Made by a program: the position numbers and the translations under genes | The notes under the pieces: generated by a model | What the model was told of the DNA's origin: nothing | The model's database searches: none | The model's input: the letters and a program-made list of their open reading frames with translations, nothing else | Shown here: positions 7,177-45,090 of the stretch, piece by piece | Layout of the letters: each line of letters opens with the position of its first letter | Numbering within the stretch: the first letter of the stretch is position 1 | Source of the DNA: Clostridia bacterium | Lineage (GTDB): Bacteria > Bacillota > Clostridia > Oscillospirales > Acutalibacteraceae | Assembly: GCA_017507805.1 (NCBI GenBank) | Contig: JAFWAC010000023.1 | Location: forward strand, 1-58,145 | Length of the DNA: 58,145 nucleotides | Direction: 5' to 3'

Positions 7177-7401
7177 AAATTATAGTTTGCCGCGTGCCGC
7201 GGCGGCCAATCCGCCTTTTTATTCTGCAAAATTGCAACCCAATACCCCGATGGTGTAATTGCCTCTAACCTACAACTTAAATTGATTATTTGTAGGGACA
7301 GGCGTCCTCGACTGTCCGTTGATTTAGATGTATTTTGCGGGCAGTCGAGGACGCCTGCCCCTACAATATATCATATTGATTAGTGCGCAAACTATAATTT
7401 G
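7177..7401. mobile_element. MITE-like element copy 1, with a nested insertion
   Basis: Non-coding element bounded by AAATTATAGTTTGC (7177-7190) and its inverse GCAAACTATAATTT (7387-7400). Its sequence matches, in inverse orientation and nearly base for base, the element at 44956-45090, except that about 90 extra bases sit between CCTCTAACCTACAA and ATATATCATATTG. It encodes nothing. No clear target duplication was seen. Confidence 0.8.
7276..7366. mobile_element. Second palindromic element nested in the MITE-like copy
   Basis: This block is present in copy 1 and absent from the copy at 44956-45090. It carries a long imperfect inverted repeat: GTAGGGACAGGCGTCCTCGA near 7292 and its inverse TCGAGGACGCCTGCCCCTAC near 7345, with a loop of about 30 bases. 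CTACAA flanks it on both sides, which may be a short target duplication. Confidence 0.7.
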
Positions 7402-7453
7402 TTTTTTTACAACCCCTTTTTTCAGAAATTATAAATAATTAACAGTAAAGGTA

Positions 7454-7482
7454 TTGACAATAATTTGCTGTGGTTTTATAAT
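7454..7482 (+). promoter_or_regulatory. Promoter of marR-ABC operon
   Basis: TTGACA at 7454-7459, a 17-base spacer, and TATAAT at 7477-7482: a consensus sigma-A promoter about 35 bases upstream of the MarR-family start codon. Confidence 0.85.
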
Positions 7483-7483
7483 A

Positions 7484-7497
7484 GTTAGCAAGCTAAC
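7484..7497. promoter_or_regulatory. Palindromic operator at marR promoter
   Basis: Perfect palindrome GTTAGC-AA-GCTAAC directly after the -10 box and covering the likely transcription start. The position suits autorepression by the adjacent MarR protein. The half-site GTTAGC recurs in the feo promoter region (38948 onward). Confidence 0.7.
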
Positions 7498-7517
7498 ATT
7501 TTACGGGCAGGTGTACT

Positions 7518-7964
7518 ATGCAAAGAGAAAATGATATAGGCTTTGCCGTAAGGCGGCTTTCAAATGCAATAAAGCGGGATGTTGAAAAAAACCGTGCCGA
7601 TTTGGGGATTGTAATTCCAAAGGGTATCAGCGGCTGGGTAATCAGGTATCTTTATGATAATGCTGACAGGGATGTTTTTCAGCGCGATTTTGAGGAAAAC
7701 TTTTCGATAAGACCGTCAACAGCCAGCCGTATGCTTAAAGCGATGGAGAAAAAAGGCTTTATTGAAAGGGTGAGCGTTGAAAATGATGCAAGGCTCAAAA
7801 AAATTGTACTGACCGAAAGGGCAATAGAAAACCATAAGCTTATTTTGGCAGATATTAAAAGACGGGAAGCGCTTTTGCGGCGCGGTATTTCAGATAGTGA
7901 AATAACGGTCTTTTTTGAAACAATGCAAAAGCTCACAGCAAATTTGGAGGAACAAAATGATTAA
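7518..7964 (+). CDS. MarR-family transcriptional regulator
   Basis: The product is 148 residues, the usual MarR size. It has a winged helix-turn-helix (VFQRDFEENFSIRPSTASRMLKAM helix pair, then a wing around ENDARLKKIVLTERA) and helical ends for dimerisation. The start at 7518 follows GGGCAGGTGTACT, a modest ribosome site. The gene overlaps the downstream ABC gene by 8 bases. Upstream lie a consensus promoter and a perfect GTTAGC palindrome, so it most likely represses its own operon and is released by a drug-like or metabolite ligand. MarR plus two half-size ABC exporters is a common Firmicutes arrangement. The ligand cannot be told from sequence. Confidence 0.92.
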   Translation: MQRENDIGFAVRRLSNAIKRDVEKNRADLGIVIPKGISGWVIRYLYDNADRDVFQRDFEENFSIRPSTASRMLKAMEKKGFIERVSVENDARLKKIVLTERAIENHKLILADIKRREALLRRGISDSEITVFFETMQKLTANLEEQND

Positions 7965-9702
7965 GACCTTGGTAAAATCAATCAGAGAATATAAGCTCCC
8001 TTCAATACTTACCCTCATTTTTATTGCGGGCGAGGTTGTAATTGAGGTGCTTATTCCGTTTATAACGGCAGATCTTGTTAATAATATAAAGGCGGGCGCA
8101 CCGATAGAAGCGGTGGTTAAAACGGGATTAATTCTTATCCTTATGGCGGTGCTGTCGCTTTCGTGCGGTGGTATAGCAGGTGTTACCTGTGCAAATGCTT
8201 CAACCGGCTTTGCAAAAAATTTGAGACACGATATGTTCAAAAAAATTCAAGGCTATTCCTTTGGTAATATCGATAAATTTTCTTCAACCTCATTGGTTAC
8301 AAGACTAACCACTGATATTACCAATGTTCAGATGTCTTATATGATGCTCATTCGTACTGCAATCAGAAGTCCCTTGATGTTTGTTTTCTCGATTGTCATG
8401 GCGTATGTGATGGGCGGAGCGCTCGCAACCTCTTTTGTGGTGGTTGTTCCTGTGCTTTTATTCGGTTTGCTGTTTGTGAGCCGTAAGGCAATGCCGGCAT
8501 TCAGACGGGTTTTCAAGAAATATGACCGACTTAACGAATCAATTGAGGAAAATGTCCGCGCGACGCGTGTTGTAAAGGGCTTTTCAAGAGAGGAATATGA
8601 AAAGCAGAAATTTGCAGATGCGGCAGATGATATAACCTTTGATTTTACAAAGGCAGAAAGAATTGTTGCCCTCAATGCCCCTATTATGCAGTTTTGTATG
8701 TATTTTAACATGGTATTCATTCTGCTTATCGGCTCAAAGCTTGTGATTTCAAGCGGCGGCAGTACCGTTGATGTGGGTCAGATTTCTGCAATGCTGACCT
8801 ATGGCGTGCAGATACTTATGTCACTGATGATGCTGTCAATGATTTATGTAATGCTCACCATGTCGGCAGAGTCGATTAAGCGTATCTGCGAGGTATTAAA
8901 CGAGGAATCCACCCTTAAAAACTGCGAAAACCCCGTTACAGCTGTGGTAGACGGTTCGGTAAGCTTTGAGAATGTGAGCTTCAAGTATTCTGAAACCGCA
9001 AAAAGATTTGCACTTGAGGGTATTAATCTTGAAATCCGTTCGGGTATGACGGTTGGTATAATCGGCGGCACGGGCTCAAGTAAATCCTCGTTGGTACAGC
9101 TCATTCCAAGACTTTACGATGTCACCGAAGGCTCTGTAAAGGTCGGGGGAGTGGATGTAAGAGAATATGATATCAATGTTCTGCGCGACAGTGTGGCAAT
9201 GGTTCTGCAAAAAAATCAGCTCTTTTCCGGTACAATCAAGGAAAACCTGCGTTGGGGCAACGAAAATGCAACCGATGAGGAAATAGCAGAGGTTTGCCGG
9301 CTTGCGCAGGCAGATGAGTTTATTGCCACTTTCCCTGAAGGGTACGACACTTATATCGAGCAGGGAGGCACAAATGTTTCGGGCGGACAGAAGCAAAGAC
9401 TTTGTATTGCCAGAGCATTGCTTAAAAAGCCAAAAATATTGATTTTAGATGACTCCACAAGTGCGGTAGATACCAAAACTGACGCATTTATCCGCATGGG
9501 CTTTAAAAAGTTTATACCCGAAACCACGAAATTCATTATTGCTCAGCGTGTTGCATCTGTTGAGGATGCTGATATGATAATAGTTATGGAAAATGGTAAA
9601 ATCGCAGATTTGGGCACACACAGCGAGCTTTTGCAAACGAGTGAAATTTACCGTGAGGTATATGAGCAACAAACCACAGGAGGTGCCGAAAATGAAGACT
9701 AA
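7957..9702 (+). CDS. ABC exporter half-transporter, subunit with degenerate ATP site
   Basis: The start is ATG 7957 after GGAGGAACAAA. The 581-residue product has an N-terminal six-helix exporter domain and a C-terminal nucleotide-binding domain: Walker A GGTGSSKSS (Lys376), signature VSGGQ (474-478) and Walker B LILDD (Asp498). The residue after Walker B is Asp499 where catalytic Glu is usual. This is the hallmark of the non-hydrolysing site in heterodimeric exporters such as TM287/288 and BmrCD (established knowledge). Its partner is the next gene, which overlaps by 11 bases. It probably exports drugs or other amphipathic compounds. Start, domains and motifs are seen; substrate is unknown. 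Confidence 0.92.
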   Translation: MIKTLVKSIREYKLPSILTLIFIAGEVVIEVLIPFITADLVNNIKAGAPIEAVVKTGLILILMAVLSLSCGGIAGVTCANASTGFAKNLRHDMFKKIQGYSFGNIDKFSSTSLVTRLTTDITNVQMSYMMLIRTAIRSPLMFVFSIVMAYVMGGALATSFVVVVPVLLFGLLFVSRKAMPAFRRVFKKYDRLNESIEENVRATRVVKGFSREEYEKQKFADAADDITFDFTKAERIVALNAPIMQFCMYFNMVFILLIGSKLVISSGGSTVDVGQISAMLTYGVQILMSLMMLSMIYVMLTMSAESIKRICEVLNEESTLKNCENPVTAVVDGSVSFENVSFKYSETAKRFALEGINLEIRSGMTVGIIGGTGSSKSSLVQLIPRLYDVTEGSVKVGGVDVREYDINVLRDSVAMVLQKNQLFSGTIKENLRWGNENATDEEIAEVCRLAQADEFIATFPEGYDTYIEQGGTNVSGGQKQRLCIARALLKKPKILILDDSTSAVDTKTDAFIRMGFKKFIPETTKFIIAQRVASVEDADMIIVMENGKIADLGTHSELLQTSEIYREVYEQQTTGGAENED

Positions 9703-11626
9703 CAATATGCCCCGTCCAAACGGAGCACAGCCTCCGATGAAGCGAAAGCTCAATTTCGGCGCACTCAAAAGGGTTTTGAAGATGCTTTTTTCGTACTATC
9801 CGGTGCTGTTGCCGGTTGCAATTGCCTGCATCATTTTTTCGGCAATCGCTTCGGCAATTCCGGCAATATTCAATCAACAGGTAATTGCTGCCATTGAGGA
9901 ATGGTATATAAGCCGTGATTGGGCAGCGGCAAGGTCGGAAATTGTGCCCAAGATTGTTGTTCTTGCGGTGCTTTATGCCATTTCTCTGATGGCTGTTATT
10001 GCCCATACACAGCTTATGGCAATAATCACTCAAGGATTTTTGGGAAAAATGCGTAAGACAATGTTTAACGGAATGCAGAATTTGCCTGTAAGGTTTTTTG
10101 ATACACACAAGCACGGCGATATTATGAGCTATTACACCAATGATATTGACACACTCCGTCAGCTGGTTTCTCAGTCAATACCGGCGCTTTTGCAGGCAGG
10201 TATTATAGTTACAAGCGTTTTCTTTATAATGCTTTGGTACAGCATCTGGATGACCTTGGTGGTAATTGCAGGTGTGTTCTTAATGCTTTTTGTTTCCAAA
10301 AAAATCGGCGGCGGCTCTGCAAAGTATTTTATCCGTCAGCAAAAGGCAATCGGTAAAACAGAGGGCTTTATTCAGGAAATGATGAGTGGGCAGAAGGTGG
10401 TTAAGGTTTTCTGTCACGAAGCCAAAGCACAAGAGGATTTCGACAGAATCAATAACGAGCTTTTTCAGGACAGCCGCCGCGCTAATGCCTACGCCAACTG
10501 CTTAGGCCCGATTATTATGAATATAGGTAATGTTTTATATGTTATAATTGCAATGGTCGGAGGCTTGTTCTTGCTTTCGGGTGCAAAGAATTTCAGCATT
10601 TCCGGAATGGCATTCGAGATTAGCATAATAATCCCTTTTCTTAATATGACCAAGCAGTTCACAGGTAATGTCAGTCAGGTTACCCAACAGATAAATTCAA
10701 TCGTTATGGGACTTGCCGGTGCTGAGAGAGTTTTTGCTCTTATGGATGAAACTGCAGAAACCGATGAGGGCTATGTGACACTTGTCAACGCCACCGAGGA
10801 TGAAAACGGCAATATAACCGAAGATGAAAACCGCACAGGAATATGGGCTTGGAAGCATCCCCACCATGACGGTACTGTTACCTATACCCGCCTTACGGGT
10901 GATGTGAGACTTCACGATGTAGATTTCGGTTATACCGATGAAAAAATCGTGCTCCACAATATTGATATTTATGCCGAGCCCGGTCAGAAAATAGCCTTTG
11001 TTGGTGCAACGGGCGCAGGAAAAACCACCATAACAAATCTTATCAACCGTTTTTATGATATTGCAGACGGTAAAATCCGTTATGACGGTATTAATATCAA
11101 TAAAATCAAGAAAAGCGATTTGAGACGCTCCTTGGGTATAGTTTTACAGGAAACAAACCTCTTTACGGGAACGGTTATGGATAACATCCGCTACGGCAGA
11201 CTTGATGCTACCGATGAGGAATGTATAACTGCGGCAAAGCTTTCGGGCGCAGACGATTTCATAACCCGTTTGCCTGACGGATACGAAACTCAGCTTACCA
11301 ACAACGGTGCAAATCTTTCTCAGGGACAGCGCCAGCTTATTGCTATTGCCCGCGCGGCGGTTGCAGACCCGCCGGTTATGATATTGGACGAGGCAACCTC
11401 GAGTATTGACACCCGTACCGAGGCTATTGTTCAGCGCGGTATGGACCGACTTATGCAGGGCAGAACGGTATTTGTTATCGCACACAGACTTTCAACCGTC
11501 AAGAATTCCGATGTGATAATGGTGCTTGAAAAGGGCAGAATTATCGAGCGCGGCTCACACGAAGCCCTTATTGCACAAAAGGGCAAGTATTATCAGCTTT
11601 ACACAGGCGCTTTTGAATTGGAATAA
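9692..11626 (+). CDS. ABC exporter half-transporter, subunit with canonical ATP site
   Basis: The start is ATG 9692, 10 bases after AGGAGG, inside the end of the preceding gene; an in-frame start at 9593 would overlap too much. The 644-residue product has a Lys/Arg-rich N-terminus, six membrane segments, an acidic and aromatic linker (about 370-410) and an ATPase domain: Walker A GATGAGKTT (Lys444), signature LSQGQ (542-546), Walker B ILDEATSSID with catalytic Glu567. It pairs with the degenerate-site subunit as a heterodimeric exporter. The longer linker is typical of the larger partner in such pairs. A hairpin at 11635-11691 follows it. Confidence 0.92.
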   Translation: MKTNNMPRPNGAQPPMKRKLNFGALKRVLKMLFSYYPVLLPVAIACIIFSAIASAIPAIFNQQVIAAIEEWYISRDWAAARSEIVPKIVVLAVLYAISLMAVIAHTQLMAIITQGFLGKMRKTMFNGMQNLPVRFFDTHKHGDIMSYYTNDIDTLRQLVSQSIPALLQAGIIVTSVFFIMLWYSIWMTLVVIAGVFLMLFVSKKIGGGSAKYFIRQQKAIGKTEGFIQEMMSGQKVVKVFCHEAKAQEDFDRINNELFQDSRRANAYANCLGPIIMNIGNVLYVIIAMVGGLFLLSGAKNFSISGMAFEISIIIPFLNMTKQFTGNVSQVTQQINSIVMGLAGAERVFALMDETAETDEGYVTLVNATEDENGNITEDENRTGIWAWKHPHHDGTVTYTRLTGDVRLHDVDFGYTDEKIVLHNIDIYAEPGQKIAFVGATGAGKTTITNLINRFYDIADGKIRYDGININKIKKSDLRRSLGIVLQETNLFTGTVMDNIRYGRLDATDEECITAAKLSGADDFITRLPDGYETQLTNNGANLSQGQRQLIAIARAAVADPPVMILDEATSSIDTRTEAIVQRGMDRLMQGRTVFVIAHRLSTVKNSDVIMVLEKGRIIERGSHEALIAQKGKYYQLYTGAFELE

Positions 11627-11634
11627 ATAGGTAT

Positions 11635-11691
11635 AATCCTCACTTTATATGAATACTATTAAAAAGAAGTATTTTATATAAAGTGAGGATT
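11635..11691 (+). promoter_or_regulatory. Long leader hairpin burying the ribosome site of the SPOCS gene
   Basis: A 16-bp perfect stem (11635-11650 with 11676-11691) is topped by a second stem AATACT/AGTATT. The 3' arm contains AAGTGAGG (11681-11688), the only ribosome binding site for the ATG at 11699. The structure could terminate the ABC operon (it is followed by TTTGTATT, a weak U-tract) or control translation of the spore gene by hiding its ribosome site, or do both. Confidence 0.7.
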
Positions 11692-11698
11692 TTGTATT

Positions 11699-13231
11699 AT
11701 GGAACAAAAGTGCCTAAAGACAAGCGTATATTTCAATGATACGGTATACAGCGATTCGGCAGAGCAGGCAATAGATGTAGATTTTACCCTGCCTGATTAC
11801 TGCCCCGATATTTCAAAAATTTTCAAGTGTCGCGCTGTGCCGAGGATTACCTCAAAGGGGATAAACGGAAAAACCGTAACGGTGGACGGTAATGTGGCTG
11901 TAACACTTATCTATGCTGACCGTGACGGTAATCTCTGCTCCTATGAATATTCCTATCCCTTTGTTAAAAACCTTGAAATGCCCAACGAGTGCGCAGGCGC
12001 AAATCTTTGCTGCAGGGTGCGTTGCGAATATATAAACTGCCGCGCAGTTACCGGCAGAAAGGTGGATATTCACGGCGCTGTCGGGCTTTACATAAAGGTT
12101 TTCAAAAGAAAGTGCGAGGAAATAATATCCGATTTTGATGACGGAAATATAGAGCTTCGCCGCGGTATCGCTCCTGCAACTGTGCCTATGGGTTATGCCG
12201 AAAAATATCTGCTTATTGAAGAAGAAATCCGTATAGGTCAGGGACAGCCCTCTGTTGGGAATATTTTAAGGTGCGATGCCAACACCTGCGTGAAGGAAAC
12301 CAAGGTGATAAACGATAAGGCGGTTGTAAAGGGTGAAATGACGGTAAGCCTTCTCTACTGTCCCGAGGGGGGCGGAAATCCGCAATGCGTAAAAACCGTA
12401 ATCCCTTTCAGCCAGATTGTGGATGTTGAGGGTATCACCGACACCTGTATGTGCGATACCAAATCCGAAATCGCCTTTTTTGAGGCAAAGCCCCGAATTT
12501 CTGCAACGGGGGAGACCAAGTGTATTTCTCTAACTGCCAAAATTCTGCTCACCTGCGAGGGCTATTGCGGTAACGATATTGCTGTGGTGCTTGATGCCTT
12601 TTCGAGAAAATATCAGGCAGATATCAAACGCAACAAGGTTTCCTTTGAAAAAATAACCTCAAATATAAGTGAGGTTTACCACTGTAAAAAAAGTGTGGAG
12701 CTGGAGGAAAGCATCACTTCGGTTATAGATTTGTGGTGTAACATCAAGACTGCGACAACAAAATTTGAAAACTGCAATATGATAATTTGCGGTACACTTA
12801 TTGCCGGTATGATAGTCTGCAATGAAAATGACACCGCAATTTACTGTGAAAAGCCGATAGATTTTGAATATAAATATCCTGTCAGCTGTGAGCTTGGCAT
12901 ACCTCACTGCGAGCCGCAGATAGAGATACTTTCCTGCGGCTACACAATAACCTCATCGAATAATATAGAGCTGAGGGTGGAGCTGGGCATTAATGCGGCA
13001 ATATATGAAAAGAAGGATATGTCGCTCATTTCCGAAATGTCACTTGATAATACGCGCACCGTTGAGCGCCGTGGCAGAGCTGCCATGACGGTTTATTTCC
13101 CCGGCGCCGATGAATGTGTGTGGGATGTTGCCCGCACCTACAACGCAAGTGTGGAGGAAATTATGAGTGTAAACAATCTTGAAAGCGAAAGCTTGTGCGA
13201 GGGGAAAATGCTGTTGATCCCTCTTATGTGA
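11699..13231 (+). CDS. SPOCS (DUF3794) and LysM domain protein, SipL-like spore coat morphogenesis
   Basis: The product is 510 residues. An N-terminal segment with VDFTLPDYCPDISKIFKCRA is followed by a second repeat of the same type (IGQGQPSVGNILRCDA) and a third beta-rich region around 300-430. The C-terminus is a LysM motif (TVYFPGADECVWDVARTYNASV to EGKMLLIPLM). This architecture matches the SPOCS-LysM family, including SipL of Clostridioides difficile, which binds SpoIVA and helps build the coat (established). Cys content is high. The gene sits alone between the ABC operon and a convergent operon. Expression in the mother cell is expected, but no sigma-E or sigma-K promoter could be assigned. 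The hairpin over its ribosome site is unusual. Confidence 0.85.
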   Translation: MEQKCLKTSVYFNDTVYSDSAEQAIDVDFTLPDYCPDISKIFKCRAVPRITSKGINGKTVTVDGNVAVTLIYADRDGNLCSYEYSYPFVKNLEMPNECAGANLCCRVRCEYINCRAVTGRKVDIHGAVGLYIKVFKRKCEEIISDFDDGNIELRRGIAPATVPMGYAEKYLLIEEEIRIGQGQPSVGNILRCDANTCVKETKVINDKAVVKGEMTVSLLYCPEGGGNPQCVKTVIPFSQIVDVEGITDTCMCDTKSEIAFFEAKPRISATGETKCISLTAKILLTCEGYCGNDIAVVLDAFSRKYQADIKRNKVSFEKITSNISEVYHCKKSVELEESITSVIDLWCNIKTATTKFENCNMIICGTLIAGMIVCNENDTAIYCEKPIDFEYKYPVSCELGIPHCEPQIEILSCGYTITSSNNIELRVELGINAAIYEKKDMSLISEMSLDNTRTVERRGRAAMTVYFPGADECVWDVARTYNASVEEIMSVNNLESESLCEGKMLLIPLM

Positions 13232-13265
13232 CGGATAAAGAAACGGTAAAAACAAATTAAAAACA

Positions 13266-13305
13266 AATGCGGAGGAGGTTGAGAACACACCCCTTCCGCA
13301 TTTTA
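13266..13305. terminator. Hairpin H2 of AATGCGG family, between convergent genes
   Basis: AATGCGGAGGAGG pairs imperfectly (with wobble) with CCCCTTCCGCATT and is followed by TTATTTTTT on the plus strand. It sits between the SPOCS gene and the convergent DUF4364 gene, so it probably serves as terminator for the former. Confidence 0.65.
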
Positions 13306-13349
13306 TTTTTTGAAGTAATAAATAATAAGCAATAGTGATAAGTAATGTG

Positions 13350-13388
13350 CCGGAAAGCGGCACGATATATATCGGTTTGCGTGGCAAA
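13350..13388. repeat. Two short hairpins downstream of H2
   Basis: GTGCCG-GAAAG-CGGCAC (13350-13366) and GTTTGC-GTG-GCAAAC (about 13374-13388) are adjacent perfect small stems in the gap between convergent genes. They are probably a decayed repeat or a terminator for the minus-strand operon; nothing else was seen in this gap. Confidence 0.4.
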
Positions 13389-13439
13389 CACCAAACTTCT
13401 CACATCTTCACTCTTACCTTTTACCTCAAATTATAGATA

Positions 13440-13991
13440 TTATTTTGTCAACAGCTCAATTATTTTTGAATATATTTCCGAAGTGTTATCCAAAAATTTT
13501 TCCTTGATGTAAAGTCCCTGTTCCTCATCCGCAATCATAAGCTTAACGCTGATAAGCGGAACACCGTTGTCGATTGCGGAGCAGGTAATGTAGGCTTTTT
13601 CACCCTCTCGGGAGATTTTTATATCGGTTTCCTTTGCATTTTTGAAGCGGGAAACCATTTTTATTGCCGCTGAATATGCTCTGTCCTTCACAGCAAGCGG
13701 CAACGAGGTTTTAAGGGTTTGTGCAATACTGCGTCCGCTGTCTGTAATTACATAGGTATCATCCTTCTGGTCATGAAGCCTGAGCTGACCGCCCTTGCAA
13801 AGGGATGCTATTGAATCGTTTACCTCAAAGCAATTGGCAATCCCCTCATAGTGCAGAGTGTCTGCAAGAAGTCTGCCCGGAACGGGTTTGTTAATCGCTG
13901 CAAGTAAATAGCATATTAAAATGCGTATCTGTGCGGTGCTGAAAAGACCGCCCGCCTGTGATACTCCGGCTGAAACAGCATCTTTTTCCAA
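13440..13991 (-). CDS. DUF4364 family winged-helix protein
   Basis: The product is 183 residues. It begins with TTG at 13991, 8 bases after AGGAAG; there is no in-frame ATG nearby. The N-terminal part (AQIRILICYLLAAINKPVPGRLLADTL) looks like a winged helix and the C-terminal half is a mixed alpha/beta domain (ISREGEKAYITCSAI). This agrees with DUF4364, a clostridial family of unknown role. It is the last gene of hom-lysC-DUF4364, 16 bases after lysC, so it may regulate or simply travel with threonine/lysine synthesis. Function is not known. Confidence 0.75.
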   Translation of the reverse strand: MEKDAVSAGVSQAGGLFSTAQIRILICYLLAAINKPVPGRLLADTLHYEGIANCFEVNDSIASLCKGGQLRLHDQKDDTYVITDSGRSIAQTLKTSLPLAVKDRAYSAAIKMVSRFKNAKETDIKISREGEKAYITCSAIDNGVPLISVKLMIADEEQGLYIKEKFLDNTSEIYSKIIELLTK

Positions 13992-14007
13992 AAAAATACT
14001 TCCTTTA

Positions 14008-15216: not shown

Positions 15217-15237
15217 ATTCAGAACCTCCAAATGAAA

Positions 15238-25359: not shown

Positions 25360-25425
25360 CAAATTATATTTTAGCGCAGAGAAGAAAAGAACATCCCTAC
25401 AAATAGCTCAAATAAACTGTAATTT
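25360..25425. repeat. Decayed, internally deleted MITE-like remnant
   Basis: The ends CAAATTATATTTTAGCGC and AAATAAACTGTAATTTAAAG resemble the terminal repeats of the elements at 7177 and 44956. The flank running into hairpin H4 (ATTACA, then GCAAAAATGCGGCAG) also matches the flank beside 45090. Alignment is by eye. Confidence 0.4.
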
Positions 25426-26517: not shown

Positions 26518-26590
26518 TTATAGTTTTCTGTGCTTCGTGGCAGTAATTCCGCCTGTTTATTCTGCAAGGTTTCAACCCAATACACCTTGA
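26518..26590. repeat. Decayed MITE-like fragment
   Basis: TATAGTTTTCTG, GTGGCAGTAATTCCGCC, TTATTCTGCAAGGTTTC and AACCCAATACACC follow in the same order as the left half of the element at 7177-7265 with many substitutions. Only the left half is present. Aligned by eye. Confidence 0.55.
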
Positions 26591-26665: not shown

Positions 26666-26675
26666 TGAAAATACA

Positions 26676-26834
26676 GATAGAGGCGCGATTGGTTATCAGT
26701 AATCCTTGGGTGCTAACCTCGGCAGAGGGATACCGCGGATGAAAGGAGCTGTCGCCGAAGGTGTGTGCCGGCAGGTATACTCCTGGTAAGACGGAATAAT
26801 ATTCGGCTTACTGTCGCATTTGCGGAGTGCTATC
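26676..26834 (+). ncRNA. Lysine riboswitch (L box)
   Basis: Conserved L-box blocks are seen in order: GATAGAGGCGCG, AGTAATCC, GGATGAAAGGAGC, GTCGCCGAAG, TGCCGGCAGGTAT, TACTGTCGCATTTGCGGAG and GTGCTATC. GATAG (26676-26680) pairs with CTATC (26830-26834) as P1. Lysine binding closes the aptamer and stops transcription or translation of the downstream lysine genes (established). Its position just before dapA-lysA agrees. Confidence 0.93.
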
Positions 26835-26851
26835 GAAAACAGAGTGAATTT

Positions 26852-35855: not shown

Positions 35856-35889
35856 TTATATCACTTTACTTTCTTATGATAGAGCAAAT

Positions 35890-35925: not shown

Positions 35926-35937
35926 ATTGAGCACATA

Positions 35938-37428: not shown

Positions 37429-37440
37429 AGTGAAACACCT

Positions 37441-37569
37441 CTAAAATCTGCCGAAAAGAAATCCGGCACAAAAATAACCTATAAGTAAAAGCATTATAGC
37501 GGCGGCAGTAAAAAGCATGGATTTTAAAAACATACTGCCTGCGCGGCTTTTCTTTTTATTACCGTTCAT
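37441..37569 (-). CDS. 42-residue membrane protein, first gene before phosphohexomutase
   Basis: The frame MNGNKKKSRAGSMFLKSMLF continues into a hydrophobic stretch and ends FLFGRF. It is preceded by GAGGTGTTTTGT and its stop lies 12 bases before the mutase ATG, whose own leader repeats GAGGTGTTT. One membrane segment (about 17-40) with a basic N-terminus inside is predicted. It is below common gene-calling length limits. Not recognised as any family; co-expression with the mutase is likely. Confidence 0.65.
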   Translation of the reverse strand: MNGNKKKSRAGSMFLKSMLFTAAAIMLLLIGYFCAGFLFGRF

Positions 37570-37633
37570 ACAAAACACCTCAAGGGTAGTTTTGACCTCA
37601 AACAATATATTTAAACATTGGCGGTGACCTTAA

Positions 37634-38813: not shown

Positions 38814-38909
38814 TTTCAAATCTCCTTACATTATACCTACATAGTTATTTTAAAGCATATAAGTGGCTTTGTCAACCGAAAAAGCAATTAAAAAATCTTA
38901 AAAAAGGTA

Positions 38910-38938
38910 TTGACAAATCTTGGGATAGGTGGTATTAT
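38910..38938 (+). promoter_or_regulatory. Promoter of feo operon
   Basis: TTGACA (38910-38915), 17-base spacer, TATTAT (38933-38938). Confidence 0.8.
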
Positions 38939-38947
38939 ATTCAGGCA

Positions 38948-38963
38948 GTTAGCTTAGGCTAAT
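38948..38963. promoter_or_regulatory. DtxR/IdeR-like palindrome at the feo promoter
   Basis: TTAGC-TTAG-GCTAA immediately after the -10 region. It resembles the DtxR-family operator core TTAGGTTAGCCTAA (established) and is placed to block initiation, as expected for iron repression of ferrous iron uptake. Confidence 0.65.
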
Positions 38964-38979
38964 TATTTTTGAGGCTGTC

Positions 38980-38997
38980 AGTTAGTGTCAACTAACT
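38980..38997. promoter_or_regulatory. Second palindrome in feo leader
   Basis: AGTTAGT-GTCA-ACTAACT, perfect 7-bp arms, between the promoter and feoA. It could be a second operator for the same regulator or an RNA hairpin. Confidence 0.55.
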
Positions 38998-39015
38998 CGT
39001 GTTGGGGTGAAAATT

Positions 39016-39234
39016 ATGAATTTAACAACTGCACAGGAAGGAAAAGAGTACATAATCAAGCAAATCCTTACCGATGATGAGGAGCTTGATGCATTTCTTT
39101 TTTCTTTGGGGTGCTACAGCGGCGAGCCCATAACGGTGGTTTCTCGCCTTAATGGAAGCTGTGTGGTTTCGATTAAGGACGGCAGGTATAATATCGACAG
39201 TCAGTTAGCAGAGGCAATTGTTATAGAGGATTAA
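39016..39234 (+). CDS. feoA: Ferrous iron transport protein A
   Basis: The 72-residue SH3-like protein MNLTTAQEGKEYIIKQI with LGCYSGEPITVVSR and the closing SQLAEAIVI matches FeoA, which assists FeoB. The start is ATG 39016 after GGGGTGAAAATT; the GTG at 39007 overlaps that site. First gene of a three-gene iron operon. Confidence 0.92.
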   Translation: MNLTTAQEGKEYIIKQILTDDEELDAFLFSLGCYSGEPITVVSRLNGSCVVSIKDGRYNIDSQLAEAIVIED

Positions 39235-39237
39235 ACA

Positions 39238-39293
39238 AAACCGCTTTGAGGCGGATTGTTTTTCGGCGCGCAGTTAGCAACGGGTAACTGCGC
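39238..39293 (+). terminator. Two hairpins between feoA and feoB
   Basis: CCGC-TTTGAG-GCGG followed by ATTGTTTTT (39241-39263), then GCGCAGTTA / TAACTGCGC (39268-39276, 39285-39293), a perfect 9-bp stem followed by TCGTTTT. The second contains the AGTTAGC word seen in the operators. They may attenuate feoB or bind the regulator. Confidence 0.6.
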
Positions 39294-39334
39294 TCGTTTT
39301 AAAAAATAATATATATTTTGGGGAGGAAACCAAT

Positions 39335-41356
39335 ATGAGAATTGCTTTAACGGGCAATCCGAACAGTGGTAAGACCACAATGTATAATGCCTTAACAGGC
39401 AGTAACGAAAAGGTTGGCAATTGGGCAGGCGTTACGGTTGAGAAAAAGGAGCACGCCATAAAAAAGAGCTTTTATGACGGTACGGCAGTGCTTATTGCCG
39501 TTGACCTTCCGGGTGCTTATTCAATGTCACCCTTTACCTCGGAGGAAAGCATCACAAGCTCTTATGTAAAGAATGAAAATCCCGACGTTATTATCAACAT
39601 TGTGGATGCCACGAATTTAAGCCGCAGTCTTTTCTTTACAACCCAGCTTCTGGAGCTTGGTATTCCGATGGTTGTTGCTCTTAACAAGGCAGATATCAAC
39701 GAGAAAAAGGAGACTAAAATCGATACGGCGGCACTTTCTCAAAAATTGGGCTGTCCGGTAGTGGATACAGTTTCCACCTCTGCCGATGGCTTGAAGGAGG
39801 TTATCGGTGCGGCAATAGCGCTGGTGGGAAAGGAACAGAATGCGCCCTTTATTCAGGGCGATGTTGACCTTACCGATAAAAAGGCGGTTGAGATTGCCGA
39901 CAGAAAGCGCTTCCAATTTGTTAATACGCTTGTGGCTGAGGTTGAAACCCGTAAGGTTTTGACAAGGGACAGAAATTCACAGGATAAAATAGATGCTGTT
40001 TTCACAAACAAATGGCTCGGTATTCCGATTTTTGCGGTCGTGATGTGGCTTGTTTTCTGGATTTCACAGGCAGGCCCCGGTGTGTGGATTGCTGATTGGC
40101 TGGTAGGGCTTCTTGAAATCGGACAGGGTGCAATAGGCACCTTGCTTGAAAATGCCAATCCCTTGCTTTATGCTCTGCTTATTGACGGTGTTATCGGCGG
40201 TGTTATCGCCGTTATCGGTTTCCTGCCGCTTGTTATGGTGATGTATTTCCTTATTGCGCTGTTAGAGGATTGCGGATATATGGCGCGTGTATCGGTGGTT
40301 TTGGATCCCATATTCAAAAAGGTTGGTCTTTCGGGCAAATCGGTTATCCCCTTTGTTATCGGTACAGGCTGTGCAATCCCCGGTGTTATGGCTTGCCGCA
40401 CAATCCGTAATGAGCGCGAGCGCAGAGCCACCGCAATGCTTGCTCCCTTTATGCCATGCGGCGCAAAGCTTCCCGTAATCGCACTTTTTGCAGGCGTTTT
40501 TTTCAGGGATGCTTCTTGGGTTGGCACGCTTATGTATTTTGCAGGTATTGTGTTTATTCTTTTAGGTGCTTTGCTTATCAATAAGCTTACCGGATATAAG
40601 TCAAGAAAATCCTACTTTATTATCGAGCTTCCCGAATATAAGGTCCCCTCTTTCTGGAGAGCCTTCAAGTCTATGTGCGGACGCGGCTGGGCTTACATAG
40701 TAAAGGCGGCAACGATAATCCTTGTCTGCAACACTGCCGTTCAGATTATGCAGACCTTTGATTGGAGCTTCAGGGAAGCCGCATCTGCCGATGCTTCAAT
40801 TTTAGCTTCTATTGCGGGACCCTTTGCTTATATCGTACTGCCCGTTGTGGGGATTGTTTCCTGGCAACTTGCCGCGGCTGCTGTTACAGGCTTTATCGCA
40901 AAGGAAAATGTTGTCGGCACCCTGGCAGTTTGCTTTGGAGTTACAAACTTTATCAATGTTGATGAGCTTGTCCTCGAGGGCGGCGCAGATGAGGTTGCGG
41001 CTAAAATGGGTATCACTGCAGTTGCCGCCTTGGCATATCTTATGTTCAATCTTTTTTCGCCTCCCTGCTTTGCGGCTATCGGTGCTATGAACAGCGAAAT
41101 GAAAAGTGCAAAATGGCTTTGGAGTGGTATTGCACTCCAGCTTGGCATCGGCTTCATAATCGGCTATTTGGTAAACACTGTCGGCACTCTTATTGTTGAT
41201 GCCTCATCACTTCATATCGGCGGTGCTGTCGGCGGCGGTATTGCCGTTGTGATTATGGCAGTTATAGTGGCTTGTCTTTGCATTAATGCCGAGAAAAAGC
41301 TTAAATCAGAATATGCCTTGAACAGTACCAAAAAGGCTGAAGCCGTAACCAAATAA
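39335..41356 (+). CDS. feoB: Ferrous iron transporter FeoB
   Basis: GTP-gated Fe2+ uptake protein of 673 residues. The N-terminal G domain shows GNPNSGKTT (7-15), DLPGAYSM, NKAD and the SAD-type G5 region; then a helical insertion and about eight membrane segments. Gate-type motifs LPLVMVMYFLIALLEDCGYMARVS and GTGCAIPGVMACRTI, and later FMPCGAKLPVIALF and GFIAKENVVGTLAV, match FeoB. GGGGAGGAAACCAAT precedes the ATG. It follows feoA by 100 bases with hairpins between. Confidence 0.96.
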   Translation: MRIALTGNPNSGKTTMYNALTGSNEKVGNWAGVTVEKKEHAIKKSFYDGTAVLIAVDLPGAYSMSPFTSEESITSSYVKNENPDVIINIVDATNLSRSLFFTTQLLELGIPMVVALNKADINEKKETKIDTAALSQKLGCPVVDTVSTSADGLKEVIGAAIALVGKEQNAPFIQGDVDLTDKKAVEIADRKRFQFVNTLVAEVETRKVLTRDRNSQDKIDAVFTNKWLGIPIFAVVMWLVFWISQAGPGVWIADWLVGLLEIGQGAIGTLLENANPLLYALLIDGVIGGVIAVIGFLPLVMVMYFLIALLEDCGYMARVSVVLDPIFKKVGLSGKSVIPFVIGTGCAIPGVMACRTIRNERERRATAMLAPFMPCGAKLPVIALFAGVFFRDASWVGTLMYFAGIVFILLGALLINKLTGYKSRKSYFIIELPEYKVPSFWRAFKSMCGRGWAYIVKAATIILVCNTAVQIMQTFDWSFREAASADASILASIAGPFAYIVLPVVGIVSWQLAAAAVTGFIAKENVVGTLAVCFGVTNFINVDELVLEGGADEVAAKMGITAVAALAYLMFNLFSPPCFAAIGAMNSEMKSAKWLWSGIALQLGIGFIIGYLVNTVGTLIVDASSLHIGGAVGGGIAVVIMAVIVACLCINAEKKLKSEYALNSTKKAEAVTK

Positions 41357-41372
41357 TACTAATTAAAACACC

Positions 41373-41400
41373 AAAACCGCCCTTTAAAGGCGGTTTTGTA
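41373..41400 (+). terminator. Terminator after feoB
   Basis: AAAACCGCC / GGCGGTTTT stem followed by GTATTGATTTTT. The Cys-rich gene lies just beyond, so it may be expressed by read-through. Confidence 0.8.
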
Positions 41401-41423
41401 TTGATTTTTAAGGGATGAAAATT

Positions 41424-41609
41424 ATGGAAAATTTTATCATTATAGCTATAGTGGTAATAATAGTGGGCTTGGCAGTTTTATATATATATAAATCAAAGAA
41501 AAACGGCAAAAATTGTATTGGCTGTCCGGATAGCTGCTGTTCCTCCAAACAGAGTGACGGCTTCAAATGCACAGGCTGTTGTTCGGGCTGTCATAATACC
41601 GAAAAATGA
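41424..41609 (+). CDS. FeoB-associated Cys-rich membrane protein
   Basis: The 61-residue protein has one N-terminal membrane segment (about 3-24), a short Lys-rich stretch and a Cys-rich tail (CIGCPDSCCSS, CTGCCSGC). This form is typical of the small FeoB-associated protein family found after feoB in Firmicutes. ATG 41424 follows AAGGGA at a better distance than the ATG at 41415. A role in handling Fe2+ on the inner face is inference. Confidence 0.85.
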   Translation: MENFIIIAIVVIIVGLAVLYIYKSKKNGKNCIGCPDSCCSSKQSDGFKCTGCCSGCHNTEK

Positions 41610-41642
41610 AAAATCCTCTGTGTCATGCAATCAATCATTTGT

Positions 41643-41671
41643 CAACACAAGAGAACCGTCCCCTTGTGTTG
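41643..41671. repeat. REP-type palindrome, left copy
   Basis: A 29-base imperfect palindrome with outer CAACACAAG / CTTGTGTTG and inner GAGAACCGTCCCC. It is the exact reverse complement of 42150-42178. Two further partial copies of CCCCTTGTGTTG follow in tandem up to 41693. Confidence 0.85.
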
Positions 41672-41734
41672 CCCCTTGTGTTGCCTTGTGTTGATTCTTT
41701 ACCACATAAAAATCTCAAACAGAACATATGCTTA

Positions 41735-42091
41735 TTATTCGTTTCTAAAATCATATACATCGTGTAAAACATTTAATGTTTTACCATTTATAACAACATT
41801 TTCTTCATCAAGCCAATTGACATCCGCTTCATCCTCGTGATAACTCCAATAAATATTCTTTTTGTTCTCATTAAGGTTATCTATAAGTTCTCCACGTATT
41901 GCAAAATCGGTTGTTGCTCCACCATTACACAAATAAATATTAATTGTGTAATTAGAAGATGGAGAATCATATGCTACTACAAATTCACCTTGCGGAAGAT
42001 TACTCATTGTTCCACAGGATGTTAATAATATTGCAAAAGAAACAATAAAAATCAATCTTAATGGCTTGATATGTTTTGAATTTATATGCAT
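41735..42091 (-). CDS. Small lipoprotein, DUF5412-like
   Basis: The 118-residue product has a signal peptide ending in LLTSC (lipobox), so it is a lipoprotein on the outer face of the membrane. The mature part (EFVVAYDSPSSNYTINIYLCNGG, IRGELIDN, IYWSYHEDEADVNWLDEENVVING) resembles DUF5412 proteins of unknown role. RBS AAGGAG precedes the ATG. Base use is more AT-rich than its neighbours and the gene is framed by inverted REP palindromes, which together point to recent arrival. Confidence 0.75.
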   Translation of the reverse strand: MHINSKHIKPLRLIFIVSFAILLTSCGTMSNLPQGEFVVAYDSPSSNYTINIYLCNGGATTDFAIRGELIDNLNENKKNIYWSYHEDEADVNWLDEENVVINGKTLNVLHDVYDFRNE

Positions 42092-42149
42092 AGTACACTC
42101 CTTTTTATCTTAAATCTAATATATCCTAAATTTGTTGCCAACTTTCACA

Positions 42150-42178
42150 ACACAAGGGGACGGTTCTCTTGTGTTGTT
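42150..42178. repeat. REP-type palindrome, right copy
   Basis: Exact inverse of 41643-41671: outer CAACACAAG / CTTGTGTTG with inner GGGGACGGTTCTC. With the left copy it brackets the lipoprotein gene. Confidence 0.85.
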
Positions 42179-42249
42179 TTAAATAGTTACTATTTTTCAC
42201 CGTCTACATATACACAACAATTCAAAACACAAAATAGGTTACAAAATTT

Positions 42250-42423
42250 TCAAAATTTTCTAACAATATTAAAACCCACACCAGTTAATCGGCTGATTTG
42301 TCTTATAGACAAACCTTTTTCGCGACAAAGTTTTAAGTATTTATCGCGTTTTTTTACATCTGAATTTTTCAACACGGGGAGACGATTCCCTGTGTAACCT
42401 TTTCGTGTGAAGTTGTGTGCAAA
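42250..42423 (-). pseudogene. Remnant of REP-associated (Y1/RAYT) transposase C-terminus
   Basis: The minus frame reads GYTGNRLPVLKNSDVKKRD, then KYLKLCREKGLSIRQISRLT and GVGFNIVRKF before a stop. The GLSIRQISRLTGV helix-turn-helix and the following basic residues match, from memory, the C-terminal end of REP-associated tyrosine transposases. The catalytic HUH and Tyr domain is absent: an in-frame stop lies at about 42424 and no continuation was seen. It lies 72 bases from the REP palindrome. Confidence 0.65.
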
Positions 42424-42500
42424 AATTGCTTAATTTAAATAAAAAAGCTTTAATTTCAAATTGAACAAAAAAGGCTTTGAAAGCGCATGAATAAAGGAAA

Positions 42501-42520
42501 AGACCGCTATTACGCGGTCT
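42501..42520 (-). terminator. Terminator of tRNA-Leu
   Basis: AGACCGC-GTAATA-GCGGTCT then TTTTCC on the minus strand, 7 bases after the tRNA end. Confidence 0.85.
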
Positions 42521-42527
42521 TGATGTT

Positions 42528-42611
42528 TGGTGCGGGTGACAGGAGTCGAACCTGCACACCGATGGCGCTAGCTCCTAAGGCTAGTGCGTCTGCCAATTCC
42601 GCCACACCCGC
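42528..42611 (-). tRNA. tRNA-Leu (anticodon UAG)
   Basis: Acceptor GCGGGTG / CACCCGC, D arm, anticodon stem CTAGC / GCTAG with loop CTTAGGA (anticodon TAG), a long variable region (about 12 bases) as in class II tRNAs, and T arm GCAGG-TTCGACT-CCTGT. Discriminator A and an encoded CCA are present at the 3' end. Minus-strand promoter at 42633-42661. Confidence 0.95.
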
Positions 42612-42632
42612 ATATTTAAATATTACTCTAAC

Positions 42633-42661
42633 AGTTTACCTGTTAAAGCCTGATTTGTCAA
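42633..42661 (-). promoter_or_regulatory. Promoter of tRNA-Leu
   Basis: On the minus strand TTGACA (42661-42656), 17-base spacer, TAAACT (42638-42633). Confidence 0.75.
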
Positions 42662-42688
42662 GTGCTGAAATTTAAAAAATTAAAAATT

Positions 42689-42719
42689 GACCGTAGGGTG
42701 AAGCTTCAATCCTACGGTC
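42689..42719 (-). terminator. Terminator of Gfo/Idh/MocA gene
   Basis: GACCGTAGG / CCTACGGTC, 9-bp stem, followed on the minus strand by AATTTTTAATTTTTT. Confidence 0.8.
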
Positions 42720-42727
42720 TTTACAGC

Positions 42728-43981
42728 TTAAAAAATCTCATTAAAGGGTTGCTTTTGGTCAAGTGCATATTCGGTTTCGCACAAATCGGTTCGTCTGTAC
42801 CACTTACCCTGTGTGAAATCGGGGATTGCAACAGGCTGACCGCCCAAAGCGATGGATTCCTCACTCAACGCGGAAATACACATATAGGTTACGGTGTCAT
42901 AAACATCAATAGGGGGCTTTGCCTTTTTCTCTACTGCATCAAAGAATGCGTGTAAAACCATCCAATCCATTCCGTCATGTCCGCCCTTGGGATCAAAATT
43001 TCTCCAAAGCTTGTGCAGGTGCTTTTCCTCATATTCTGCGGCATTTCCCCACAGACCTCTGCCGTTAAATTCAAATTTATCGTGCTCTCCGTCAAAGAAA
43101 AAGCTGTCGGTATCCTCAAAATATGAGCCTGCGGTACCGCGCACCGTAAAGCCGCGGGAATATGAACGGGGCAGGGTGGTATCAAGGGTTAGCTGAATGG
43201 TTTGTCCCTTGGCGCATTTTATAACTGTTGTGACAATATCGCCTTGTGCAAATTCAAGGTCTGCGAGCCGGTCGTCAGACTTAAGGTTTTTCTGTATATA
43301 TTCATTTAAGCCTCTACTGCTTGACGCAAATGATGCAAGGCTGACAAGGCGGTTTCCGTTATTTATATTAAGTAATTTTGCGATGGGGCCCAGCTCGTGG
43401 GTGGGGTAATTTTCGCAATTACGGTTAAGGTAGTTAAGAAAACGGTAATGCTTAGTTTCGGGACCGCCGGTAATTTCACTTCTCAGGTCGTGCTGATAGC
43501 CTCCGGCACAGTGGACAATCTCACCCAAAATACCCGAACGCACCATATTAAGGAGCATAAGCTCACGTTTGCCGTAACAGCAGTTTTCAAGCAGCATGCA
43601 GTGCGTTCCTGTTTCTTCATAGGTATTTACAAGCTTCCAGCAGTCATTCAGGCTGTAAGCACCGCCAACCTCAAGACCGACAGGTATGCCCGCGCGCATG
43701 AAGGCGGTTGCTATTTCAACATGGGTTTCCCATGAGCTTGAAATGATAACGGCATCAAGGTTGCCTTTTGCTATAAGCTCCTTGTAATCGGCTGTTACAA
43801 AAGGTTTTGGGTATCCGGCTTTCTCTACCGCCTCTGCGGCATTTTCTGCGCGGTCTATATATTTATCGCATGTGGCGCAGAGTAGTATGTTTTCCTCAAG
43901 CATTGGAATTAAAACGCCGGTGAGCAGTCCTGTGCCTCTCTTGCTGCAGCCAATCAAGCCAAATCGTATTTTTTTATTCAT
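42728..43981 (-). CDS. Gfo/Idh/MocA family oxidoreductase
   Basis: NAD(P)-dependent sugar-type dehydrogenase or glycosidase-like member, 417 residues. The start is ATG 43981, 9 bases after AAGGGG; a GTG directly before it is less likely. The N-terminal Rossmann part has IRFGLIGCSKRGTG, ATCDKY, DAVIISSSWETHVEIATAFM and GIPVGLEVGGA (in place of the common EKP), followed by the C-terminal beta-sheet domain (GTHCMLLENCCYG, HELGPIAKLL). The EVGG variant is typical of the group annotated as alpha-N-acetylgalactosaminidase-like or uncharacterised. It is divergent from an AraC regulator that probably controls it. Substrate unknown. Confidence 0.85.
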   Translation of the reverse strand: MNKKIRFGLIGCSKRGTGLLTGVLIPMLEENILLCATCDKYIDRAENAAEAVEKAGYPKPFVTADYKELIAKGNLDAVIISSSWETHVEIATAFMRAGIPVGLEVGGAYSLNDCWKLVNTYEETGTHCMLLENCCYGKRELMLLNMVRSGILGEIVHCAGGYQHDLRSEITGGPETKHYRFLNYLNRNCENYPTHELGPIAKLLNINNGNRLVSLASFASSSRGLNEYIQKNLKSDDRLADLEFAQGDIVTTVIKCAKGQTIQLTLDTTLPRSYSRGFTVRGTAGSYFEDTDSFFFDGEHDKFEFNGRGLWGNAAEYEEKHLHKLWRNFDPKGGHDGMDWMVLHAFFDAVEKKAKPPIDVYDTVTYMCISALSEESIALGGQPVAIPDFTQGKWYRRTDLCETEYALDQKQPFNEIF

Positions 43982-44099
43982 CACAAAATTCCCCTTTACA
44001 TAAGAAAATCGGTATGCTACAATTATACAAGAACTAAAAACATATATCTATACGAAAAAATATCAAAAATATACAATTTCAGCTCAAAAGAGGTGCGCT

Positions 44100-44951
44100 A
44101 TGCTTTGGAAATCCTACTTAATTAAGGAACAGATAAAAATAGACCGGTTTTACAGTGCTTTCAGGCGGTATTACGGGCAAGGCTATGGTTTTAAGGGAGA
44201 AATACATAATTTTTGGGAGTGCCTTTATGTGATAAGCGGGAGTCTGCAGGTTTCGGCAGACGAGCGAATATACAATATGTCTGCAGGAGATATTATTTTT
44301 CACATGCCGTTAGAGCTTCATAAGTTTACAGTTCTTTCCGAGAACGGTGCTGATATATTCGTTTTTTCCTTTTCCTTAGAGGGGGCAATGGCGCACTATA
44401 TGGAAAAAAAGCTTTTCACCTTGAACGATAGGGAAAAAAGGCTTATTGGGGAAATGCTTGAGTATATGGAGCAGGGGTTTACAAAGGTTTGTTTGGGGGA
44501 AAGAAAGTTCAGTTATAAGCAGTATATTGAGCCGATGGAGATATTGCCGCTTTATTCCCAAACCGTAGTAGCTTATCTGTATCGACTGATACTTTTTTTG
44601 ATAGATGAAAACGGCGTTACCGCTTTTTCAACCGAGCCGGATGCGGAAATTTTCAAAAAAGCGGTGGATTTTATGGTGAGCAATATTTGCGGTAAGCTTT
44701 CTGTGGGGGATTTTGCGCGGCACTGCAATGTAAGCGAAGCGGGGATAAAGCGCATTTTCGCAAAATATTCGGGTGTGGGAGTTCATAAATATTTTCTCAC
44801 CCTTAAAATAAAGACTGCAACCGAGCTTTTAAACAGCGGAATGTCTGTAGGTCAGGTTGCAGAAAAGCTTGGGTTTAGCAGTCAGGGCTATTTTTCTGCC
44901 ACCTTCAAGCGCGAAACGGGTGAATTACCTTCCGAATATTTCGGGCGGTGA
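44100..44951 (+). CDS. AraC-family transcriptional regulator
   Basis: The 283-residue product has an N-terminal cupin-like part (IHNFWECLYVISGSLQVSADERIYNMSAGDIIFHMPLELHKF in pattern), a helical middle and a C-terminal pair of helix-turn-helix motifs (LSVGDFARHCNVSEAGIKRIFAKYSGVG and VGQVAEKLGFSSQGYFSATFKRETGELPSEY). ATG follows AGAGGTGCGCT. The 118-base gap to the divergent oxidoreductase must hold both promoters, so it likely regulates that gene. Confidence 0.92.
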   Translation: MLWKSYLIKEQIKIDRFYSAFRRYYGQGYGFKGEIHNFWECLYVISGSLQVSADERIYNMSAGDIIFHMPLELHKFTVLSENGADIFVFSFSLEGAMAHYMEKKLFTLNDREKRLIGEMLEYMEQGFTKVCLGERKFSYKQYIEPMEILPLYSQTVVAYLYRLILFLIDENGVTAFSTEPDAEIFKKAVDFMVSNICGKLSVGDFARHCNVSEAGIKRIFAKYSGVGVHKYFLTLKIKTATELLNSGMSVGQVAEKLGFSSQGYFSATFKRETGELPSEYFGR

Positions 44952-44955
44952 AAAA

Positions 44956-45090
44956 CAAATTATAGTTTGCACACTAATCAATATGATATATTGTAGGTTA
45001 GAGGCATTTACACCATCGGGGTATTGGGTTGCAATTTTGCAGAATAAAAAGGCGGATTGGCCGCCGCGGTACGCGGCAAACTATAATTTG
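44956..45090. mobile_element. MITE-like element copy 2 (uninterrupted)
   Basis: 135 bases bounded by perfect 15-bp terminal repeats CAAATTATAGTTTGC (44956-44970) and GCAAACTATAATTTG (45076-45090). No coding capacity. It is the inverse of copy 1 without the nested block. It lies 5 bases after the AraC stop codon. Confidence 0.85.

Follow-up and report, generated by a model that had tools for sequence, protein, structure and literature searches.

A modular MITE-like repeat family found beside terminator-like hairpins in a Clostridia bacterium and its relatives

Several kinds of short repeats have been described in bacteria, and the comparisons made here draw on PMC3049150, PMC3733652, PMC10969869, PMC6006769, and PMC2817692. 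For example, the BOX elements of Streptococcus pneumoniae and S. suis are short composite repeats in which end modules flank a middle module of varying number, and they cluster with and insert into other repeats (PMC3049150). Miniature inverted-repeat transposable elements (MITEs) are short, free of genes and high in copy number, have inverted ends, and are presumably moved in trans (PMC10969869). Repetitive extragenic palindromes (REPs) carry a GTAG head, form doublets termed REPINs, and go together with REP-associated tyrosine transposases (RAYTs) (PMC2817692, PMC3733652), whereas TIRtrons, with their TIRYT transposases, are inverted-repeat families tied to Y1 transposases that have no GTAG heads (PMC3733652). 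In this study, we analyzed a window of 58,145 nucleotides from a Clostridia bacterium of the Acutalibacteraceae (assembly GCA_017507805.1, contig JAFWAC010000023.1, positions 1 to 58,145), which contains two good copies, copy A and copy B, of a small non-coding repeat. We believe that this repeat is probably a modular, non-autonomous element, MITE-like and BOX-like, that is defined only by its ends and is inserted beyond terminators by an enzyme acting in trans.

Copies A and B, whose positions are given in Table 1, are near-identical apart from one internal insertion or deletion. They match at 98% over 99 nt and at 98% over 47 nt, and copy A is longer by approximately 91 nt between the two matching blocks; the extra stretch holds a 27-nt inverted pair of GTAG-headed palindromes, which is a REPIN, and copy B has none. 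An earlier sequence-only reading of the window had described two near-identical copies in inverse orientation that end in 15-bp repeats. The copies agree with that description and the inverted ends are real, but in detail the ends are the 12-mers AAATTATAGTTT / AAACTATAATTT with short tails. When ">" stands for the 12-mer AAATTATAGTTT and "<" for its complement, both copies have the layout > A ... alpha2 <, with the middle site decayed or missing. The pattern AATTATAGTTTRBCG, with up to 2 mismatches, had 5 matches in the window compared with 1.25 expected, and 5 matches were reached in 0 of 100 shuffles. A gapped two-end pattern gave no match in the window, its spacer being too short for copies A and B. 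The same reading had named two remnants. The one at 26518-26590 was borne out as a decayed copy of module A, 77% alike, with a single end. The one at 25360-25425 does belong to the family, but is a short element of the B type, complete with its two ends, and not a remnant of the A module; its best local scores were 57 (L005) and 53 (L011), compared with a maximum of 33 in 100 shuffles (five loci, one strand). Here and below, L-numbers are fetched loci and G-numbers are genomes of the genus. Both copies fold better than shuffled sequences, copy A with z -11.85, largely owing to its REPIN hairpin, and copy B with z -4.54 (1 of 200 shuffles folded equally well).

The four traces in the window had been taken to suggest an abundant family, and the family is indeed larger than these traces. 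In the draft genome of this bacterium (2.34 Mb, 87.6% complete), copy B gave 66 blastn pieces at E <= 1, some of them an end alone, and the exact pattern AATTATAGTTTRBCG occurred 60 times, with 0 occurrences of the reversed-pattern control. From the fetched loci of this genome, 48 clusters were catalogued and 42 were kept after six weak ones had been dropped; four of the 42 are a single site, and several have only one outer end. At each boundary of a complete element stands AAATTATAGTTT plus its short tail; inside, further copies of the 12-mer divide the modules, in the order > (A >)n B <, where n is 0-2. Module A measures 71-79 nt between sites and is present 0, 1, or 2 times, which corresponds to the variable middle-module number of BOX. 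Module B has an alpha end and a beta end, between which a REPIN is usually found, and its spacer is 109-111 nt in 13 of 23 B segments and 11-447 nt in the others. Further orders are > A > A > B in L010, > B < A(reversed) < in L018, and > A > A > in L017. The elements of this genome are short, like those of its relatives, and judged by its letters the beta end (CCCCAAT then AAACTATAATTT) looks to us like the right end of the relatives with another site joined on. The likeness to BOX as described in PMC3049150 was seen in the layout; by contrast, the host differs, the repeated unit itself includes the 12-mer of the ends, the element houses REPINs, and terminators are preferred by one end.

Such arrays might also be cassettes of a site-specific recombinase, in which the dyad-symmetric 12-mer would be the crossover site and modules A and B would be added, deleted, or flipped. 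The identical 12-mer between modules and the near-constant spacers fit this explanation, as does the presence of module B in both orientations beside A. Among 15 arrays with a middle site, inspected by eye, the alpha end of B faces A in 7 (L014, L008, L013, L006, L021, L009, and L011), the beta end faces A in 5 (L018, L016, L025, L010, and L026), and 3 were not classified (L005, L017, and L022). However, independent insertion could also yield both orientations of B, the ends found in a sub-clade of relatives differ from each other, ATA against GGG, and stand inverted, and no recombinase with these ends was found, though no genome-wide search for one was made. We consider recombinase cassettes improbable. 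With a mobile element inserted in trans, which we favor, new elements entering the terminator tail that an older copy had used, and lying next to that copy, would give head-to-tail arrays (> A > A > B <), a mode of growth that can be compared with the varying boxB number of BOX (PMC3049150).

The distribution of the family in the genus is patchy. The exact end pattern was present in 9 of 70 genomes and absent from the other 61; seven genomes hold 5-70 matches and two hold 1-2. The numbers were 60 in the genome of the window, 70 in G044, 60 in G026, 21 in G062, 18 in G012, 16 in G050, 5 in G001, 2 in G058, and 1 in G032, and the reversed-pattern control gave 0-1 per genome. The single G032 match and one of the two G058 matches may be due to chance; L093 (G058) was judged a chance match within a gene and was rejected as an element end. 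When copy B was the query at E <= 1e-4, with up to 12 candidates scored per genome, only G012 and G017 matched beyond its own genome. Elements of the G044 sub-clade have TTYAAATTATAGTTTATCG as their left and GCGATAAACCCCAATTTA as their right end; the two pair with each other apart from ATA vs CCC. In the loci of seven relatives, a right-end match with up to 3 substitutions lay within 900 bp for 62 of 84 distinct left ends, with no gene between; the remaining 22, many of them at contig ends, had no such match. After removal of three rows from the G012 loci L062 and L064 and of one pair by the duplicate/short-flank filter, 58 distinct elements were left. These are 79-339 bp long (median 181), and their conservation stops sharply at both ends. 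REPIN-like sequence was found in 31 of the 58 by simple patterns, and no interior repeat class is common to all of them. In the smallest form seen (L325, G012), the ends make up a perfect palindrome of 43 nt, after which comes an A-like stretch. The left-end pattern had 0 matches in viral contigs, and copy A had no match among plasmids and phages.

The element has at each end an imperfectly palindromic 12-mer with a short tail (AAATTATAGTTT plus mostly RBCG), which we propose is recognized by an enzyme supplied in trans, and its unconserved interior houses other small repeats such as REPINs, long hairpins, and AT-rich repeats. A regulatory or structural RNA element spread by recombination instead of transposition would account for the strong folds and for a position mostly at the 3' ends of genes. 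Against it stand the lack of a common interior class in the 58 classified elements, the 61 congeners without exact ends, and the presence/absence at two loci described next, and we regard it as highly improbable.

At locus 1, G044 and G062 have the left end of the element after a gene end and its terminator, and beyond the right end the two genomes share one downstream sequence. In G058, which has no element ends here, the terminator is joined directly to the corresponding downstream sequence, and G015 has other sequence inserted. At locus 2 (L073, a narrow gap between two genes), the element is present, within one contig, in G044 only among ten genomes aligned. From the distribution and this presence/absence, we infer that the element is mobile. 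Empty sites in relatives, which the sequence-only reading had proposed as a check, were thus obtained for the family at two loci and not for the two copies of the window: in the yicC neighborhood, examined for an empty site of copy B, no end pattern was seen in 615 kb of 80 named loci, and because the neighboring gene varies across the 13 upstream regions inspected, no empty site could be obtained for the copies of the window. The best named YicC matches, at 69-71%, are from MAGs labelled Oscillospiraceae or Clostridia bacterium, and many of the nearest come from the guts of herbivores.

The ends of the element are not equivalent with respect to hairpins. Of the 58 elements found in relatives, 38 have a terminator-like hairpin at the ATA-type end and 8 have one at the other end, in each case with the T-run pointing to the element, compared with dinucleotide-shuffle expectations of 0.4 and 1.0, respectively, and with 3 of 446 random windows taken from these loci. 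Stem and element were 9-24 nt apart in 37 of the 38 and 32 nt apart in one; the scan used a 70-nt window, in which stems nearer than approximately 6 nt are invisible. The element thus tends to turn one particular end to the hairpins, and many of these hairpins look bidirectional. A target duplication of 2-9 nt was looked for outside the ends of the same 58 elements, and none rose above permuted pairs (largest z 1.95 over all offsets tried). We assume that the element would insert a few nucleotides past an intrinsic terminator stem, its ATA-type end facing the hairpin, with no detectable target duplication. In the genome of the window, 18 of 40 clusters lie between convergent frames, 14 between codirectional and 4 between divergent frames, and 4 were not assigned; one cluster was inside a long frame of a crude caller. 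For this count and for the first terminator count, 8 clusters had been dropped, two of them wrongly (C14:31914 and C20:19245, which have good ends and other cargo); the terminator count was redone on 42 clusters, and the gene-context count stays at 40. Group IIC introns also insert just behind terminator hairpins in one orientation. Unlike them, the present elements, at 79-339 bp, are too short for an intron with a reverse transcriptase, and their ends are inverted.

Several observations weigh against insertion beyond terminators by an enzyme in trans. At locus 1, the ends in G062 lie at the ends of two contigs, and G044 has a 5.1-kb gene block (L335 8175-13290) between two elements, a block that sits elsewhere in G062, G015, and G058. 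The elements at this locus therefore bound a rearrangement, and one simple insertion is seen in no single contig. In G050, a lone AAACTATAATTT 12-mer stands behind the terminator of locus 1 (L337, approximately 9169-9180); it may be a scar, a remnant, or a target, and it would also suit the recombinase cassettes discussed above. The gap of locus 2 holds other repeats in five relatives, while four relatives hold none. The contig break weakens locus 1, and locus 2 offsets that. With regard to the hairpins, the opposite-strand reading gave 33 of 58 at the ATA-type end and 6 of 58 at the other end. Because the hairpins score on both strands, the counts settle which end of the element faces the hairpin and not the direction of the terminator itself. 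The link to terminators is weaker in the genome of the window, where a hairpin was found at an end in 21 of 42 clusters (background 26 of 901 windows; first count 19 of 40, background 23 of 457), at a distance of 20-45 nt in 20 of the 21 and of 65 nt in one. By eye, these hairpins have no constant polarity relative to the modules; in contig orientation they stand at 16 of 38 left ends vs 5 of 39 right ends, an unexplained bias that is perhaps chance. Proximity to terminators could partly come from selection against insertions elsewhere, which does not explain which end faces the hairpin. Moreover, an enzyme with these ends was found neither in the fetched loci nor in the Y1 loci scanned, RAYT-type genes are present in genomes that lack the ends, none was found in G000, G062, and G001, and inverted ends are more typical of DDE transposons.

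The last point leads to a classical MITE of a DDE insertion sequence whose enzyme was lost or is unassembled. Inverted ends, a short non-coding body, and strong folds are what such an element would have, and its AAATT / AATTT ends might hide an invariant palindromic duplication or a TA target, since AATT at both ends could itself be a hidden duplication. However, no duplication was detected outside the ends, the empty G058 allele has by eye no AAATTT-like target between the terminator and the shared downstream sequence, and DDE elements do not usually turn a preferred end to terminators. We think a classical MITE rather unlikely. A target-site duplication is a usual trait of MITEs, and the term MITE-like, which the earlier reading had used, suits the element in being short, gene-free, abundant, and bounded by inverted ends, and not in this trait. 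Compared with the MITEs of PMC10969869, neither the duplication nor a parent insertion sequence was detected.

The earlier reading also expected a transposase elsewhere whose ends match, and none was found in the two Y1 loci of the same genome, the scanned Y1 loci of relatives, or the fetched loci. The two Y1 transposases of this genome are by eye of the IS200 type and do not have these ends. None of the scanned Y1 loci of relatives has them, a minority of the wider Y1 matches having been read, and no long two-ended copy carrying a transposase was found in the fetched loci. At L072, L117, L118, and L119, a gene lies between ends; these were rejected as autonomous copies, as the gene is of host type where read (patatin-like, TspO-like, by eye) and is flanked by two separate elements. 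Of the 70 genomes, 49 had Y1 matches, whose distribution by eye does not follow that of the element. Because of the mismatch between RAYT-type genes and the element across genomes, a simple Y1 link fails a look at co-occurrence. Nevertheless, a single-strand HUH transposase (IS200/IS605- or RAYT/TIRYT-like) is our tentative first choice of enzyme, favored over a DDE enzyme because a fixed end faces the hairpin and the duplication is absent. Of the traits of IS200/IS605 elements, the lack of a target duplication is shared as far as could be detected outside the ends, and a Y1 gene with these ends was not found; with regard to one-strand insertion, one end of the element prefers the hairpin and the hairpins score on both strands (38 and 33). 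The element shares with TIRtrons (PMC3733652) inverted repeats and the lack of GTAG heads, and differs from them in that no Y1 gene flanked by its ends was found. It is conceivable, though we have doubts, that the element is an ends-only mobile frame of an undescribed kind, which sets a fixed end to the T-rich tail of a terminator without duplication, builds polar arrays, collects mobile repeats, and depends on an enzyme class not yet tied to such elements.

Taken by analogy, the family would be a new variant of modular mobile repeats, resembling BOX by layout and MITEs by ends and copy number; it is not filed as a classical MITE because no duplication was found. Its modular grammar, terminator preference, and REPIN cargo go beyond the sequence-only reading. 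If our interpretation is true, small repeats that choose safe sites beyond terminators, with a fixed end towards them, would illustrate how mobile DNA is tolerated in dense bacterial genomes and would make hairpin-directed insertion testable. In one relative, a rearranged gene block is also bounded by the elements, and the elements shelter REPINs whose arm families are found within RAYT-type frames of relatives.

The hairpins housed in copy A and in other elements are GTAG-headed REP doublets, like those described with RAYTs (PMC2817692, PMC3733652). In contrast, the outer element has no GTAG head and the scanned RAYT loci do not have its ends, so that the REPINs are cargo and not frame. In the fetched loci of the genome of the window, the arm families Ra, Rb, and Rc occur in 12, 24, and 14 distinct contexts, respectively, and Rd is absent there. 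The Ra arm family, to which the REPIN of copy A belongs, is also found inside RAYT-type reading frames of G044, G026, and G058, and a cognate RAYT was not found in the draft genome of the window itself. Among 12 distinct RAYT-type frames of the genus, which are part of the weaker Y1 matches, 11 have within their coding sequence inverted REP arms of 23-29 nt that are separated by 112-136 nt and that by eye fall at the same two positions of the protein; the exception is the fragment L317, without arms. The arms of L316 are 27 nt long, whereas in 200 codon shuffles of L316 the longest inverted pair had a mean of 11 nt and a maximum of 23 nt. "RAYT-type" denotes likeness only, because NF047646 scored L316 at 71.7 bits, below its cut-off of 80. 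PMC2817692 describes RAYT genes as always flanked by REPs, and the arms inside the frames of this genus differ from that arrangement. Relatives of RAYT were not found in viral contigs. Among four relatives on plasmids, the Chloroflexota record has no arms, Monoglobus has one arm before and one inside the annotated gene, Spirosoma has a GTAG-containing inverted pair at the gene end, and in Leptolinea REP pairs lie on either side of the gene, outside it.

Table 1. Positions of the element copies and associated features in the window, and RAYT-type frames with REP arms in fetched loci.
Feature	Position	Strand	Basis
Copy A: > A-module, REPIN, alpha2 end <	7177-7401	+	sequence, self-comparison, own-genome cluster catalogue
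Copy A left end AAATTATAGTTTGCCG	7177-7192	+	
A module, ~80 nt; elsewhere in genome between two sites	7189-7269	+	
REPIN Ra: pair of GTAG-headed REPs in inverse orientation, with arms at 7292-7318 and 7338-7364	7292-7364	+	
Copy A right end AAACTATAATTT	7389-7400	-	
Terminator-like hairpin 29 nt before copy A, within outer repeat	7108-7147	+	
Outer repeat, left part GGGGCTGTAAAAAAAC...; matching right end GTTTTTTTACAACCCC at 7401-7416	7046-7176	+	
Copy B: same element minus REPIN, opposite orientation	44957-45089	-	
Hairpin with A-/T-rich edges by A-side end of copy B	45110-45148	.	by eye; not scored as terminator by scan
Short B-type element, > alpha3 ... beta-like <	25361-25425	+	
Decayed A module, one end only	26518-26586	+	
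Arm-bearing RAYT-type frames	L316 (1003-1515), L315, L318, L319, L320, L321, L323, L330, L331, L332, L311		

Other repeats lie in or near the elements. The outer repeat around copy A, GGGGCTGTAAAAAAAC...GTTTTTTTACAGCCCC, has an internal terminator-like hairpin, and several of its copies in the genome differ in the inner element that they house at this position. A further repeat, approximately TTTGAGGTAAAAGGTAAG...TACTTCAAA, stands at or near element ends in L007, L010, L014, and L044. A long hairpin at 57449-57653 has arms of the CTCCCTCTGACGAGGG / CCCTCGTCAGAGGGAG type, and the same kind is cargo in some elements. In the window, Rfam at gathering thresholds found nothing but one tRNA and a lysine riboswitch (RF00168); the latter lies at 26670-26840, upstream of dapA and approximately 84 nt past the decayed module. 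Finally, a 29-nt perfect inverted pair, CAACACAAGAGAACCGTCCCCTTGTGTTG, at 41643-41671 and 42148-42176 surrounds a DUF5412 gene, and similar repeats flank a Y1 transposase of approximately 250 aa in a relative (L302).

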